Source of the DNA: an uncultured Nitrosomonas sp.
Lineage (GTDB): Bacteria > Pseudomonadota > Gammaproteobacteria > Burkholderiales > Nitrosomonadaceae
Length of the DNA stretch: 64,000 nt
Reading direction: 5' to 3'
NCBI GenBank assembly: GCA_902826115.1
Contig: CADEDO010000001.1
Span: 32,076-96,075, forward strand
Shown here piece by piece: positions 40,229-61,592 of this stretch; position 1 is the stretch's first letter, and every line of letters begins with the position of its first letter. The position numbers were made by a program, and so were the translations under genes. A model generated the notes under the pieces. It was not told where the DNA came from and did no database searches. It was given only the letters and a program-made list of their open reading frames with translations.

Positions 40229-41317
40229 ATGACATTTCACATTTTCCATATGAATGAAGTGTACTCAAACGCGGATGGATCTGTTCAATTCATTGAGTTT
40301 GTAGGAGAAGCCGATAGTCAGCACGAATGGGCGGGACATTCGATCACCTCGAGCAATGGCACGACCCCGAAAACTTACCAGTTCAATACCAATCTACCCA
40401 ATGCGGCAACTAATGGTAAGTCGGTATTGCTAGCAACCCAAGGATTTGCCAATTTGAGTATTGTCACGCCCGATTTCATCATACCGGACAGGTTCTTGTT
40501 TACGACCAATGGTACCGTGAGTTTCCCAGGAATGTTTGGTGGCAGCATCAGTTATGCGGAATTACCCATCGATGGCAATCGATCGCTCAATCGTGATGGC
40601 TCAACTGGAATCAATTCCCCTACAAATTTTGCCGGAAACACCAGTACTGTACAGAGCAATGCTATCTTAGGAACAGACAATCCGGACCATCTCGCAGGCA
40701 CGGCAGGAGTCGATATCATCGTGGCTGCCGGTGGCCAAGACACGCTGGATGGTAAAGAAGGCAATGACACACTGAATGGCGGCGCGAGTGTCGATACTGC
40801 AATCTACAGCCAAAATCTTGCAAGCTATTTGTTCTCCGCTGCAGCCAACGTTTTCAGCATTTCCGGTCCGGATGGCAGCGATACGCTATCTGATATCGAG
40901 CGCCTGCAATTCTCAGATAAAACGCTCGCTATTGATCTTGGTGCCGGGCAAGCAGCCAGCAATACAGTTCGAATCATCGGCGCGGCGCTCGATGCGGCGA
41001 CCATTCAGGAACACCCAGATTATGTAGGTATCGGCCTGGATTTATTCGATTCTGGACTAAGCATGCTGGAAGTTTCTCAGCTTGTAGTCGATGCGCTGGG
41101 TGATCTTAGCAATGAGCTGTTTGTGGATACGGTTTATCAGAATATAGCGGGCTTTGCGCCTCCACCTTCAGAACAAGCTTTTTATGTGGCATTGCTAGAA
41201 GGCAATGGCGGGGCGTTGACCCAGGCACAGATGCTCGAGTTCGCTGCCAATTCTGAAATCAATGCAACAAACATCGACCTCGTCGGATTGCAGCAAAGTG
41301 GAGTCGTATTTGCTTAA
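40229..41317 (+). CDS. RTX-type secreted protein with DUF4214 domain
   Basis: The 362-aa protein has an N-terminal beta-rich domain (about 1-140), two short RTX calcium-binding nonapeptide-like units (AAGGQDTLDGKEGNDTLNGG), an RTX-associated segment (SDTLSDIERLQFSDKTLAID), and a DUF4214-type helical C-terminus (VDTVYQNIAGFAPPPSEQAF). No Sec signal is present. The C-terminal hydrophobic end (GVVFA) suits type I secretion, though this is inference. An excellent ribosome site (AAGGAGGCAAC) precedes the ATG. It is probably a surface or S-layer-like protein and a second type I substrate besides the adhesin at the left edge. Confidence 0.82.
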   Translation: MTFHIFHMNEVYSNADGSVQFIEFVGEADSQHEWAGHSITSSNGTTPKTYQFNTNLPNAATNGKSVLLATQGFANLSIVTPDFIIPDRFLFTTNGTVSFPGMFGGSISYAELPIDGNRSLNRDGSTGINSPTNFAGNTSTVQSNAILGTDNPDHLAGTAGVDIIVAAGGQDTLDGKEGNDTLNGGASVDTAIYSQNLASYLFSAAANVFSISGPDGSDTLSDIERLQFSDKTLAIDLGAGQAASNTVRIIGAALDAATIQEHPDYVGIGLDLFDSGLSMLEVSQLVVDALGDLSNELFVDTVYQNIAGFAPPPSEQAFYVALLEGNGGALTQAQMLEFAANSEINATNIDLVGLQQSGVVFA

Positions 41318-41611: not shown

Positions 41612-44080
41612 ATGACAGCCTTTCTGAACAGCAAACACTTCGCAGCCGCTTCCAGCGCTGAGCAGCAGTCCCTTACAAATTCATTAGACCAAATACTCAA
41701 CAACGATTATCACGGCAGCTTGTTTGTGATGCTGGGGCAGTATCAGCGCATTCTGGCAGACAATCATCAAAGAAAATATTGGCCAGATATTCATAAAAAA
41801 CTGGATACGCTTTTCAAATGTGGCACTCCGGAGGCGATCAGCGGTCCGATGATCGGCATTCCTGTTTCCATACGGGATAGCGATTATTTTAAAGCATCGG
41901 CACAATTAATTGGTCAAGAGCGCCGTTCGCTGATGGCAAGCATCGAATGGATGGCAACTGCCTGGAATGCCACCTATGCGGATACCGGTTTATGGATGGG
42001 CAAAACGTTTGAACCGGTATCACGTGAGAAGGTCGCCCAAAAAACCCGCAACAATGCTCAGGTGATGGCTGGCTATGATCCTAAAACCACCCGTATCGGG
42101 CGCAACTTTTTCCGTGAACCACCTGATCCCAATGCAGTGCAGGCGATTGGATTGCCAGTCCTGACCCAATTATGGAAATTGAAAGACCGTCCGATGCATC
42201 CCGGCACGACTGGCTTTGATTGCGAGCTGCTAGCAGACAATCTGGACAAGGAAAAAAACATACCTTATAGCAAAACGGGCGGCTATTTTCTGTGCAATCT
42301 GGGCGCATCGGTGGTACCTGAAATGAATGACAAGCTGGTATATCAACTCAATTACCGCTGGCCCGATCTCGGTCCGGTTTATCCCATGACACGTCTGGTC
42401 GACGAGCTGGTACGCATCGACACGGGCATTTATCTGGGCCAATTGGTATTCGCCACACGTCATTACAGTATGGGTGACTTTACCTTGCCAAGCGGTCAAA
42501 CAATATCCATCGGTGACGCCTATCCATACAGCTCTTTGATCGATAATATCAAACGCATGCTGCCGCTGGGTCTATCCGGGGATAGCAATCCCTATGGCTA
42601 CCAGAATAACGGCTTCTTTCTGATGGTAGATCCCGCTTATGCTCATGCATTTTATGCAGAGGATGCATTCCCGCAACTGCGCCCGCGCCGGGGTGAAAGC
42701 GGATTCAAGGAGCTTGGCTATGATCAGACGCCCGTTTCAGCAAACCCAGACACTGCCTCAACAAAGACCACAAGGCCCCAATATTGGCCCGATCTTGCCG
42801 ATTGGATTGATGGTTGGAAACAAGACGAGGCACTAAACCATAAATTCACCACATTCATTCTGGAAGAATCCCCCAAGGGCACTGAAGATGGCGACGTGAC
42901 TGAAATGCTGCAGAAAGGGGAATCCATTTTGCAAATGCTGCAACGGATCAGCGGCGAAATTTCTGCACAGAGCAATCCGCAAGATCATTTGAAATACTTT
43001 GAAAAACTCAATCGCTTATTCCGGCGTGGAGTCGCTCCCACCGTAGAAAAAGGCTTGTTCCAGGGGCATGGTGCGCGCGGCTATAACACGCGCACCGATA
43101 GCAATGAAGAAACCAATTGCTACAACGACACAAGGCGCACGACCGGTTTTGACTACTATCACGGCGCCACGCTCAATTTACATTGCGGCTTTGGCGAAAC
43201 ATTTTGTCCTGACCCCAATGTCAAACCCGATGACGCGCGCCTCTTTCCCAGCCTATTTTCCGAGCAGATACTAGCGAATCACGCACCCAATGCACTTAAC
43301 ATGATGTGGCACAGCATTGGCAAATATATATTTCCATGGGCTGGCAAATCCTATGAAAAAATTTCAGGCAAAAAATTGAGCATGCTGCTCGACGAAAGCG
43401 ATGATTTAGCTGAGCGCTATCCCGAACGCGTGCAAGCACTCAAAACCCACTTAGCCAGTGCTCCTCATTACGCCTTGGTCGAGAAAAACCGTAAACATTA
43501 CTGGGAAACTGAGGGGGTTTATGCCGCGCACTTGAAAAGCGGCGCCTGGGACAAAGGCATGTCGGACGAAGACAAAGTATTCTGGGAAAACGAAGCGGCA
43601 TCTCACTGGGTAGATGGAGCCAATATACAAGACAAACGCATCGTCGCTGCCGATCCCTTGATGCGCATCGTGGATATGAATTACCGCATTCCGGATGCAT
43701 CGTTACAAGCCATATCGGCGGCTGGTCCATCGCCTTTTGCACGGCAGGGCTATATTTTCCTTGGCGCCGACGGACGGAAATCGATTTTACCCATGAATAA
43801 TGGCATCAACAAAAAGAAAACCGTGTTCCAATTTCATTATCGTTTTCCCATGATCGGCGGCCCTACCCCAATCGGCTTCTGCCTCGATGAAATCGTGGAG
43901 ATTGCTGATGGTCTGTATTTGGGGCAACTGATTTATTCGACAGCACTGAGCAAACCATTTCATTCATCCGTCGATCCTGCAGAGTACCAATATCAGCTGT
44001 TTGGCTACTTTTTATTATTGGATGATGCCTGGCAATATCACAGACTGGCGATAGGACTGGACACATTGATTGAATCATAG
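41612..44080 (+). CDS. Unrecognised 822-aa protein with internal duplication, glycyl radical cassette
   Basis: I do not recognise this family. The protein is rich in Trp and Tyr, and has no signal peptide or membrane helix. Two related segments stand out: NYRWPDLGPVYPMTRLVDEL then TGIYLGQLVFAT (about 250-290), and HYRFPMIGGPTPIGFCLDEI then DGLYLGQLIYST (about 740-780). Each is followed by GYxxxGFFLMVD or FGYFLLLDD. A Cys-containing stretch (NLHCGFGETFCPDP) lies in the middle. The ATG at 41612 has AAGGAG upstream. It is the first gene after a perfect FNR box and lies 11 bases before the glycyl radical enzyme. It could be a second enzyme, or a substrate-handling partner of that enzyme. Confidence 0.75.
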   Translation: MTAFLNSKHFAAASSAEQQSLTNSLDQILNNDYHGSLFVMLGQYQRILADNHQRKYWPDIHKKLDTLFKCGTPEAISGPMIGIPVSIRDSDYFKASAQLIGQERRSLMASIEWMATAWNATYADTGLWMGKTFEPVSREKVAQKTRNNAQVMAGYDPKTTRIGRNFFREPPDPNAVQAIGLPVLTQLWKLKDRPMHPGTTGFDCELLADNLDKEKNIPYSKTGGYFLCNLGASVVPEMNDKLVYQLNYRWPDLGPVYPMTRLVDELVRIDTGIYLGQLVFATRHYSMGDFTLPSGQTISIGDAYPYSSLIDNIKRMLPLGLSGDSNPYGYQNNGFFLMVDPAYAHAFYAEDAFPQLRPRRGESGFKELGYDQTPVSANPDTASTKTTRPQYWPDLADWIDGWKQDEALNHKFTTFILEESPKGTEDGDVTEMLQKGESILQMLQRISGEISAQSNPQDHLKYFEKLNRLFRRGVAPTVEKGLFQGHGARGYNTRTDSNEETNCYNDTRRTTGFDYYHGATLNLHCGFGETFCPDPNVKPDDARLFPSLFSEQILANHAPNALNMMWHSIGKYIFPWAGKSYEKISGKKLSMLLDESDDLAERYPERVQALKTHLASAPHYALVEKNRKHYWETEGVYAAHLKSGAWDKGMSDEDKVFWENEAASHWVDGANIQDKRIVAADPLMRIVDMNYRIPDASLQAISAAGPSPFARQGYIFLGADGRKSILPMNNGINKKKTVFQFHYRFPMIGGPTPIGFCLDEIVEIADGLYLGQLIYSTALSKPFHSSVDPAEYQYQLFGYFLLLDDAWQYHRLAIGLDTLIES

Positions 44081-59196: not shown

Positions 59197-60597
59197 TTAA
59201 CGGCGCACTGGATAAATTTTATGTTGCTGAGCAGTACGTCGATATTTATCAAAAACTCTGCAAATGCTAATAATGAGTAACTGCCCTTTCGGTGTCACAG
59301 TAATCTCATCATTATCTAAGGCAATTAAGCCTTCCTGTTCATATACTAAGAGTTCTGTTAATTCGGTAGCGAAGTAATATTTAAATTCAATTGGAAAGAA
59401 GGTTTCCATTGATTCGAACGAAAGTATCGATTGACAAATCAGAGCTTGCATCACTGAACGTCTTATTAAATCATCTGCACTCAATTCTATGCCGTGCATA
59501 ATGGGAAGAATATTGTGCTCCAGTTTGTTATAGTATTGCAAAAAATCACAATGATTCTGATTTAACGTTGGACCAATGCTGCCAACTGCTGAAATACCCA
59601 ATGCAATACGATAGCAATCAGGATAAATTGAATAGCCTTGCAAACTATAATGCAGCCTGCCCTGGCGCTGCGCAATGACTAATGAATCTTCACGCTTGGC
59701 AAAAAGATTCATGCCAATATGGGTGTAACCGGCATTGGTTAGCCGACTAATAGCCAGCAACATCATCGCAATAACAGTTTCAGTATCTGGCAAATCCTCT
59801 CGATTAAAATCGTATTGTGGTTTTAATTTTCCAAACAGACAAAGATAATTTAATAAATTAATTTGATTGGGATGAGTGGAAATAATTTTTTCCAAAGTAT
59901 CTTCAAATGTCTCCATACTTTGTTTAGGTAATCCATAAGTCAATTCAATCTTAATCGATTTAAAACCAGCCTGTTGAGCACTACAAATAGTACTTAATGT
60001 AGCCTCTTCAGTTTGAATGCAGCAAATAGATTGCTGTACTTGATGCGCAAAATCCTGAACACCAATAATTGCGCAGTTAAAGCCCATTTCTTTTAGAGCA
60101 GCCATCGAATGATTATTTATTTGCCTAGAATCAATCTCTATACAAAAATCCCCCTCTTTTATTAAGTTAAAATTTTTCTGAATTTCATTCATCACACTAC
60201 TTAATTGAGAGTGATTAAGAAATGTAGGTATCCCACCACCCAAATATAATTGCTCAACTCTAGGATCATCTTTAAATAATTGACCCTGAAGTCTTATTTC
60301 AAGTGCTAAATATTCAAGATATTTATTTATACTGTCATAATCGTCAGTAATAAACTGATTAGAAGGACAATAAAAGCAAGCCGAGCGACAAAAAGGAATA
60401 TGCACATATAACGATAACGGTCGACGAGCATAGACAGTCCTGCGATGACCCAACCAAGCAGAATAGGTATGCGCATCAAACGCTTCAACAAAGAAATCTG
60501 TTCTCGGATAGAGACGATAATCGTTATGGTAATACTCAAAACGACGAATAAGATCCGAATTAATAGCCAGCAAGCCAGATGACAATTGTGAATACAC
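59197..60597 (-). CDS. HemN-like radical SAM protein (diverged coproporphyrinogen oxidase)
   Basis: This 466-aa protein matches oxygen-independent coproporphyrinogen III oxidase in length and layout: YVHIPFCRSACFYCPSN with radical-SAM cysteines 70, 74 and 77, LYLGGGIPTFLNHSQL, IELTYGLPKQS, LFGKLKPQ, and a C-terminal MHGIELSADDLIRRSVMQALIC. True HemN has CX3CX2CXC, but here the fourth Cys is Ser (CPS). GGGTPT reads GGGIPT, and INxLGLxRAx-type blocks are altered. It may therefore be a paralogue with a different role. The start is GTG with AAAGGCG eight bases upstream. It is divergent from an FNR-type regulator and shares its FNR box. Confidence 0.82.
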   Translation of the reverse strand: MYSQLSSGLLAINSDLIRRFEYYHNDYRLYPRTDFFVEAFDAHTYSAWLGHRRTVYARRPLSLYVHIPFCRSACFYCPSNQFITDDYDSINKYLEYLALEIRLQGQLFKDDPRVEQLYLGGGIPTFLNHSQLSSVMNEIQKNFNLIKEGDFCIEIDSRQINNHSMAALKEMGFNCAIIGVQDFAHQVQQSICCIQTEEATLSTICSAQQAGFKSIKIELTYGLPKQSMETFEDTLEKIISTHPNQINLLNYLCLFGKLKPQYDFNREDLPDTETVIAMMLLAISRLTNAGYTHIGMNLFAKREDSLVIAQRQGRLHYSLQGYSIYPDCYRIALGISAVGSIGPTLNQNHCDFLQYYNKLEHNILPIMHGIELSADDLIRRSVMQALICQSILSFESMETFFPIEFKYYFATELTELLVYEQEGLIALDNDEITVTPKGQLLIISICRVFDKYRRTAQQHKIYPVRR

Positions 60598-60782
60598 TGA
60601 GATATCGCCTTTATTTGTGGAGACTGCGGTTAAAAGAATTTAAATTAATAAAATCGTGACATCATTCTCGTTATTCGACTGGCTTACACAATAGCAATGG
60701 CTAGCAATAGCTAAATTGAAAAAGAATGCCCACTTCCTCTAGCAATATGGGTAGAATTGTGGGCAAATCGAAAAAAATAGCT

Positions 60783-60796
60783 TTGATTCAGATCAA
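60783..60796. promoter_or_regulatory. Perfect FNR/ANR box in the hemN-like/fnr intergenic region
   Basis: TTGAT-TCAG-ATCAA fits the FNR consensus at all ten fixed bases. It is 26 bases before the fnr start codon and 186 bases from the HemN-like start. The closeness to fnr suggests negative autoregulation; activation of the divergent gene is also possible. Confidence 0.85.
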
Positions 60797-60821
60797 TTAA
60801 ACAGCGTTGAATTGAAATTTC

Positions 60822-61592
60822 TTGCATTTGGATAAAATTTTGTCTTTAGAAACTTCACCACATAATCATCTTGATATTTCGCACATTAAGTCAAGCTGCG
60901 CGACTTGCAGTTTGCGCGAATTGTGCTTGCCTGTTGGTCTCAATGAACAGGAAATTCAGATTCTAGGTGATGTGGTAAGTCATAAACGAAAGATTCAACG
61001 TGGTGGATATCTGCACCATACAGGCACGAAGTTTCAATCACTATTTGCTATTCGTAGTGGTTTTTTAAAAACTTGTGTGCTTGAAGAAGATGGACGGCAG
61101 CAAGTGACTGGATTTCATATGACTGGAGAATTACTAGGTTTAGATGCTATCAGCACAGAAATTCATACTTGTGATGCCATTGCGCTTGAAGATAGCGAAG
61201 TATGCGAAATTCCTTTTTTGAAACTGGAAGAGATTAGTCGCGTCATTCCCTCGTTAATGCGACATTTTCACAAAATAATGAGTCGTGAAATAGTTAGAGA
61301 TCATGGCGTTATGCTATTGCTGGGCAGTATGAAAGCTGAAGAGCGATTAGCAAGTTTTCTACTGAATTTATCTCGTCGATTCCTAGCGCGTGGTTATTCC
61401 GAATGCGATTTTAATCTGCGCATGACCCGTGAAGAAATTGGCAGCTATCTTGGTCTTAAGCTAGAAACCGTCAGCCGCGCATTCTCTAAACTGCAAGAAG
61501 AAAATATTATTACTGTTGATAATAAGCACATACAAATAAATGATATCGCTCGCTTAAGAATGAAAATGGGAAACACCTCTTGTGTTACTTAG
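60822..61592 (+). CDS. fnr: FNR/ANR-type oxygen-sensing transcription regulator
   Basis: This 256-aa CRP/FNR protein has the N-terminal iron-sulfur cysteines C26, C29 and C35 (CATCSLRELC) and the fourth Cys at 128 (SEVCEIPF), in the same context as Cys122 of E. coli FNR. The effector domain includes YLHHTGTKFQSLFAIRSG. The HTH recognition helix ETVSRAFSKLQ has the FNR Glu-x-x-Ser-Arg pattern that reads TTGAT. A perfect box lies 26 bases upstream. The frame opens with TTG; no ATG is available before the cysteines. It would bind the box upstream of the glycyl radical cassette as well. Confidence 0.93.
   Translation: MHLDKILSLETSPHNHLDISHIKSSCATCSLRELCLPVGLNEQEIQILGDVVSHKRKIQRGGYLHHTGTKFQSLFAIRSGFLKTCVLEEDGRQQVTGFHMTGELLGLDAISTEIHTCDAIALEDSEVCEIPFLKLEEISRVIPSLMRHFHKIMSREIVRDHGVMLLLGSMKAEERLASFLLNLSRRFLARGYSECDFNLRMTREEIGSYLGLKLETVSRAFSKLQEENIITVDNKHIQINDIARLRMKMGNTSCVT

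Follow-up and report, generated by a model that had tools for sequence, protein, structure and literature searches.

A new two-module protein family with probable GXWXG/DUF4334-type barrels, encoded beside an uncharacterised glycyl radical enzyme in Nitrosomonas and distant bacteria

The stretch of uncultured Nitrosomonas DNA analysed here (64,000 nucleotides, hereafter the window) contains five genes that follow one another nearly without gaps and encode, in this order, a large protein named P1, a glycyl radical enzyme (GRE), a small SCP2-like protein, a GRE activase and a DUF6765 protein (Table 1). The same gene set recurs, sometimes rearranged or inverted, in Nitrosomonas, a Gammaproteobacterium, Sedimenticola, Desulfobacterota, Holophagaceae and others, and no further gene is widely conserved around the cassette in the neighbourhoods compared. 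Strains listed as carrying the system include Nitrosomonas oligotropha Nm45, N. aestuarii Nm36 and Desulfosediminicola flagellatus IMCC35005. Directly upstream of it in the window (40229-41317) lies a gene for an RTX calcium-binding repeat protein with a weak DUF4214 match, which was not found at the homologous loci.

Table 1. Features of the P1-GRE cassette, in positions of the window
Feature	Position	Strand	Basis or remark
FNR-type box, perfect: TTGATGCTGATCAA	41445..41458	+	exact TTGATN4ATCAA; 154 bp upstream of the P1 start codon
P1, 822 aa, two-module	41612..44080	+	ATG at 41612; stop codon ends at 44080
P1 module 1, about residues 1-345	41612..42646	+	hhalign to single-module relatives; 4mve_A match of the model
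W-x-G-K-x-[FY]-E motif, P1 copy 1 (GLWMGKTFE)	41987..42013	+	
GIYLGQL motif, P1 copy 1	42425..42445	+	
P1 module 2, residues 405-822, with extra inserted stretches	42824..44077	+	hhalign; AF2 model; 4mve_A match
W-x-G-K-x-[FY]-E motif, P1 copy 2 (FPWAGKSYE)	43331..43357	+	
GLYLGQL motif, P1 copy 2	43910..43930	+	
GRE (P0002), 997 aa	44089..47082	+	PF02901 E 4.3e-95; PF01228 26.5 bits (cut-off 22.2)
SCP2-like small protein (P0003), 216 aa	47085..47735	+	weak PF02036 score of relatives; C-terminal pattern
GRE activase (P0004), radical SAM, 252 aa	47732..48490	+	TIGR02494 E 6e-67, 226 bits (cut-off 174)
DUF6765 protein (P0005), 364 aa	48502..49596	+	PF20551 E 2e-110

P1 carries two copies of a module marked by a YLGQL motif (GIYLGQLVFAT, residues 272-282; GLYLGQLIYST, residues 767-777), each preceded by Y-R-[WF]-P (residues 248-251 and 743-746) and D-E-[LI]-V-x-I and followed by an aromatic strand (GFFLMVD and GYFLLLD, respectively). 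The original prediction had proposed this duplication for two segments, which lie at residues 248-340 and 743-804, and the duplication is genuine and exceeds chance by a wide margin. When the two halves are aligned locally the score is 124, whereas 500 shuffled versions of the second half never exceed 57, and a profile-profile comparison between the N- and C-terminal halves, over 34 homologs, gives a probability of 98.8 (E 6.4e-17). Homology of the two segments is borne out by sequence profiles and structure models alike. What had been described as a duplicated motif order is, however, part of a larger unit. Because the N-terminal half (probability 99.9, E 5.8e-34) and the C-terminal half (probability 100, E 2.2e-40) both align in hhalign almost end to end with single-module relatives, the repeat unit is the entire module of ~300 amino acids and not only the 40-residue motif. 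Invariant in both copies are W128, G130, K131, E134, Q245, Y248, R249, D264, E265, L275-G276-Q277-L278 and Y330, of which W128, G130, K131 and E134 are unchanged in both copies over all alignment rows and nine are polar (K131, E134, Q245, Y248, R249, D264, E265, Q277 and Y330). An alignment of 14 modules yields a signature that starts with L-F, G-x-x-x-G, W-x-G-K-x-[FY], G-x-N and S-[VI] and ends with V...Y-R...P...D-E...I-x-x-G-x-x-x-G-x-L...T and Y-x-Y...G-[YF]-F...D.

Relatives of P1 differ in how the two modules are joined. In several Desulfobacterota genomes they are two adjacent single-module genes of about 320-360 amino acids (loci L088-L090), and shorter fused proteins of 614-620 amino acids also occur (L091, L092). 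A sensitive module profile run against 395 Desulfobacterota genomes detected modules in 13 of them, always as a pair (an insertion splits or interrupts one pair, and another spans contig ends). The module seems to be needed in twos. The modules of single-module relatives (L088-L091) bear lipoprotein-like signals, whereas P1 itself has no signal peptide. At one locus (L094, G588:C2, 9223-13007) P1 consists of two open frames ~1.3 kb apart, as if there were an insertion between or into the modules. In-frame stops are present in P1 of several other Nitrosomonas genomes (L005/L041, L007, L010, L011), and in L010 a truncated P1 is closely followed by DUF6765 sequence; the system seems to be decaying in these genomes, or these are assembly errors instead.

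That P1 belongs to no recognised family, as had been proposed, agrees with the profile libraries, which assign neither P1 nor its 33 orthologs nor the distant single modules to any Pfam or NCBIfam family. A sequence search of the PDB returned no usable match for P1 or with the profiles A1 and A2, and the isolated hits to a PafC helix-turn-helix (E 0.07) and a haem dehydratase (E 0.57) were rejected, each being found in one sequence and not family-wide. The full-length model of P1 is poor overall (pLDDT 64.7) with a good first half; the second half was therefore judged from a separate AF2 model, folded alone on a pooled alignment (pLDDT 83.6, pTM 0.88), and the first half only from the full-length model. 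In Foldseek neither half model gave a match below E 0.001. With VIA-align, 4mve_A ranked top for the first half (Z 9.7, rmsd 3.1, 140 aligned of 148; next row Z 4.5) and for the second half (Z 8.3, rmsd 3.5, 146 aligned of 148; next row Z 5.5), which makes it the first and sole stand-out structural match for both predicted halves. Rows for lipocalin, avidin, NanoLuc and histamine-binding proteins in the same lists are treated as barrel-like background only. The structure 4mve is itself a member of the GXWXG/DUF4334 family because L103, a Pfam-positive GXWXG-DUF4334 protein, has it as its sole PDB match (E 2e-18). Sequence support for this link is at most suggestive: hhalign of P1 modules to GXWXG sequences is near chance, and local scores are equalled by 2-8 of 100 shuffles. 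The modules keep the G-x-x-x-G spacing of the G-x-W-x-G motif invariant but lack its Trp (GPMIG in P1, G[HY]xxG in relatives). The curated cut-offs of PF14231 and PF14232 are not reached by P1, the 33 orthologs or the distant modules, and a PF14231 search of the window's own genome gives no signal at P1. Since P1 stays below these cut-offs despite the fold match, it is placed in a new family, and its halves probably adopt a GXWXG/DUF4334-type barrel according to the models. Of the original proposal of a new domain family, the novelty of the family thus holds, while the fold is probably a known one.

The radical enzyme that had been noted beside P1 is genuine, with matches to both GRE domains (Table 1), a G-C-I-E motif at residues 542-545 and a glycyl loop, RVAGYSAYY, from residue 958, both conserved in complete homologs. 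Given these domains and motifs and the adjoining activase, the enzyme should be active. A Cys-x-Glu pair is that of eliminating GREs, i.e., dehydratases and lyases. None of the NCBIfam equivalog cut-offs is reached (best score 196 bits, with 1050 needed) among the subtypes scored, which include choline lyase, Hyp dehydratase, sulfopropanediol dehydratase, indoleacetate decarboxylase and others, and the enzyme is, as judged from its sequence, an uncharacterised subtype. It is also the sole PFL-like gene of this Nitrosomonas genome. A separate group of ~990-aa GREs with the motifs GCVEPT and RISGYNAYF is common, without P1, in Desulfobacterota (L130-L137, L146, L147, L150); it has no assignable named subtype match and is found near TetR-like regulators and, at some loci, also a short-chain dehydrogenase-like gene.

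Of the remaining cassette proteins, P0003 itself gives no match to PF02036, while its relatives reach at best E 0.0012 (19.6 bits, gathering score 21.3); they share a conserved C-terminal pattern, D...L...V...GN...KF...K. The DUF6765 protein has invariant residues at D4/H6, D35/D36, H58/D62 and H135-x3-D139-x3-H143, and these conserved His and Asp residues suggest a metal-phosphoesterase with a zinc site like that of phospholipase C or P1 nuclease. Profile searches of the PDB with the DUF6765 and SCP2-like proteins returned no relatives. At loci of the unfused type DUF6765 was not seen, and a calcineurin-like phosphoesterase is encoded upstream of the GRE. A further cassette variant (L092, 4450-10834) is adjoined by a GMC oxidoreductase and a metallophosphoesterase-like gene, its GRE being broken by a stop codon. 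A literature search found no paper that describes DUF6765, a GRE together with SCP2, or the cassette as such.

The association of P1 with the radical enzyme extends well beyond this genome. In the 395 Desulfobacterota genomes a matching GRE is present in 13 of the 13 genomes with P1 modules and in 15 genomes overall (hypergeometric P 1.4e-22, a statistic that ignores phylogeny). In the two high-scoring GRE genomes without P1, contigs end where P1 would stand, and a further genome (G786) has a more distant GRE, an SCP2-like protein and an activase, with no P1 found. In one complete genome P1 and the GRE lie 1.7 Mb apart. The 997-aa Nitrosomonas-type GRE is only 36% identical to the 827-aa Desulfobacterota type, whereas the corresponding P1 proteins are 56-64% identical; conversely, within the Nitrosomonas type, a Sedimenticola-like locus (L038) and the window share 75% identity in the GRE and only 58% in P1. 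In a tree, the Nitrosomonas-type GRE joins the P1-less ~990-aa Desulfobacterota group with support of 96/97, on a long branch that calls for caution. P1 and GRE have partly separate histories and yet are kept together, which argues for a working partnership and not for passive linkage, and this partnership is well supported.

Glycyl radical enzymes are oxygen-sensitive and need low oxygen. Upstream of P1 in the window stands a perfect FNR-type box, a sequence expected 0.32 times per window. Perfect boxes with another spacer (AATG) occur at comparable distance upstream of P1 in four other Nitrosomonas loci (L012, L013, L018, L021), which brings the number of loci with a perfect box to five; boxes with one mismatch precede P1 at L017, L019 and L040, and none was found upstream of P1 at the remaining related loci searched. 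Also encoded in the window is an FNR-type regulator (60822-61592), which has a CATCSLRELC cysteine cluster, an ETVSR helix and its own upstream box (60783-60796). It adjoins a HemN-like radical SAM gene (59197-61592 for the pair), and this exact FNR box lies between the two. On account of these boxes and the regulator, expression of the cassette at low oxygen is likely for at least some members of the genus.

Taken as a whole, these observations are tentatively read as describing a pathway in which P1 would be a two-lobed binder of the hydrophobic, lipid-like compound that the GRE consumes or produces, a reading that we favour without holding it to be established. Calycin-like barrels usually have a hydrophobic ligand, and this property, the SCP2-like protein of the cassette and the recurring phosphoesterases together point to a ligand of this class. 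P1 would consist of a pair of calycin/lipocalin-like barrels of GXWXG/DUF4334 type, as predicted by the models, each of which may bind the lipid-like molecule, and would act in one pathway with the GRE, its activase, the SCP2-like putative lipid-binding protein and a phosphoesterase-like protein, a role that could be filled by DUF6765 here and by the calcineurin-like phosphoesterase in other cassettes. FNR would turn the operon on under low oxygen. The phosphoesterase would then free or trim the lipid-like molecule, the SCP2-like protein and P1 would carry or hold it, and the Cys-x-Glu site of the GRE might perform a radical elimination either on this molecule or on its released headgroup.

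A catalytic P1 is the main competing explanation: its barrels would be active sites, as in other calycin-like enzymes, and it would perform one step before or after the GRE. The nine polar residues kept in both copies would also fit catalysis, and between the two cassette lineages P1 is better conserved than the GRE. However, P1 has no enzyme family match by sequence, its fold relative 4mve is without assigned activity and the upkeep of two equal active sites would be unusual, so that a catalytic P1 appears unlikely, if worth keeping in mind. The tight linkage and co-occurrence with the GRE, and the fused form that lacks a signal peptide and is probably cytoplasmic, would also suit a structural or regulatory GRE subunit with a role like that of the small subunits of benzylsuccinate synthase or hydroxyphenylacetate decarboxylase. 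This is improbable in view of the separation of the two genes by 1.7 Mb in a complete genome and of the pairing of P1 with two GRE lineages as divergent as those described above. The lipoprotein-like signals of the unfused modules weigh in the same direction, as these modules may be extracytoplasmic, in a compartment from which the GRE is excluded and in which a direct complex would be impossible; a pathway carrier is for this reason more likely than a fixed subunit.

A different objection concerns the fold, namely that the likeness to GXWXG/DUF4334 proteins reflects a mere common barrel arrangement and that P1 has a fold and role of its own, unrelated to theirs. The near-chance profile and shuffle comparisons are consistent with this, and Z values of 8-10 are little above the typical best values for unmatched models. 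Nevertheless, 4mve heads the list for each half, by a clear margin over the next row and with nearly full coverage, and the order W-x-G-K-x-F followed by P...D-[HE]-[FL]...G-x-[ML] is common to both groups, for which reason we regard a fold unrelated to this family as quite improbable.

Some of the most difficult anaerobic reactions are carried out by glycyl radical enzymes, and each new member of this group has revealed a pathway. Nitrosomonas is thought of as an aerobic ammonia oxidiser, and the cassette holds the sole GRE of a Nitrosomonas genome. Through P1, a conserved and so far unnamed partner family, the cassette can be recognised across phyla, and the occurrence of P1 with an uncharacterised GRE in distant bacteria points to an undescribed anaerobic pathway, probably for a greasy, lipid-like molecule. 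A more far-reaching and rather doubtful extension of the binder reading is that, under low oxygen, the GRE transforms a lipid or lipid headgroup with the help of SCP2-like and P1 lipid binders and of a phosphoesterase, in ammonia oxidisers, methanotrophs, sulfur oxidisers and sulfate reducers, which would amount to a class of radical lipid chemistry undescribed so far. What is new here is the P1 protein family in an undescribed GRE cassette; what is known is its probable, uncharacterised fold, and the cassette gives this GXWXG/DUF4334-type barrel a strong functional context.

Compared with known systems, the combination of SCP2-like protein, P1 and DUF6765 matches no GRE system found in the literature search. 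P0002 resembles the PFL2, glycerol dehydratase, choline lyase and hydroxyproline dehydratase GREs in its domains, G-C-[IV]-E motif, R-V-[AS]-G-Y loop and adjacent activase, but differs from them in falling far below every NCBIfam equivalog cut-off. In several cassettes the small protein between GRE and activase is a weak match to the SCP-2 sterol carrier family (PF02036), below the gathering score and with a longer Nitrosomonas form (216 aa), whereas P0005 is a clear member of DUF6765 (PF20551). The predicted fold of each P1 half is like that of GXWXG (PF14231)-DUF4334 (PF14232) proteins, with 4mve (Tcur_1030) as the solved example, and the two share the motif order G-x-x-x-G, W-x-G-K-x-F, P-x-x-D-[HE]-[FL] ... 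G-x-[ML] and an aromatic strand. Unlike these proteins of ~150 amino acids, P1 stays below the Pfam cut-offs and is without the Trp of G-x-W-x-G, and its modules are larger (~300-400 amino acids), paired and linked to a GRE.
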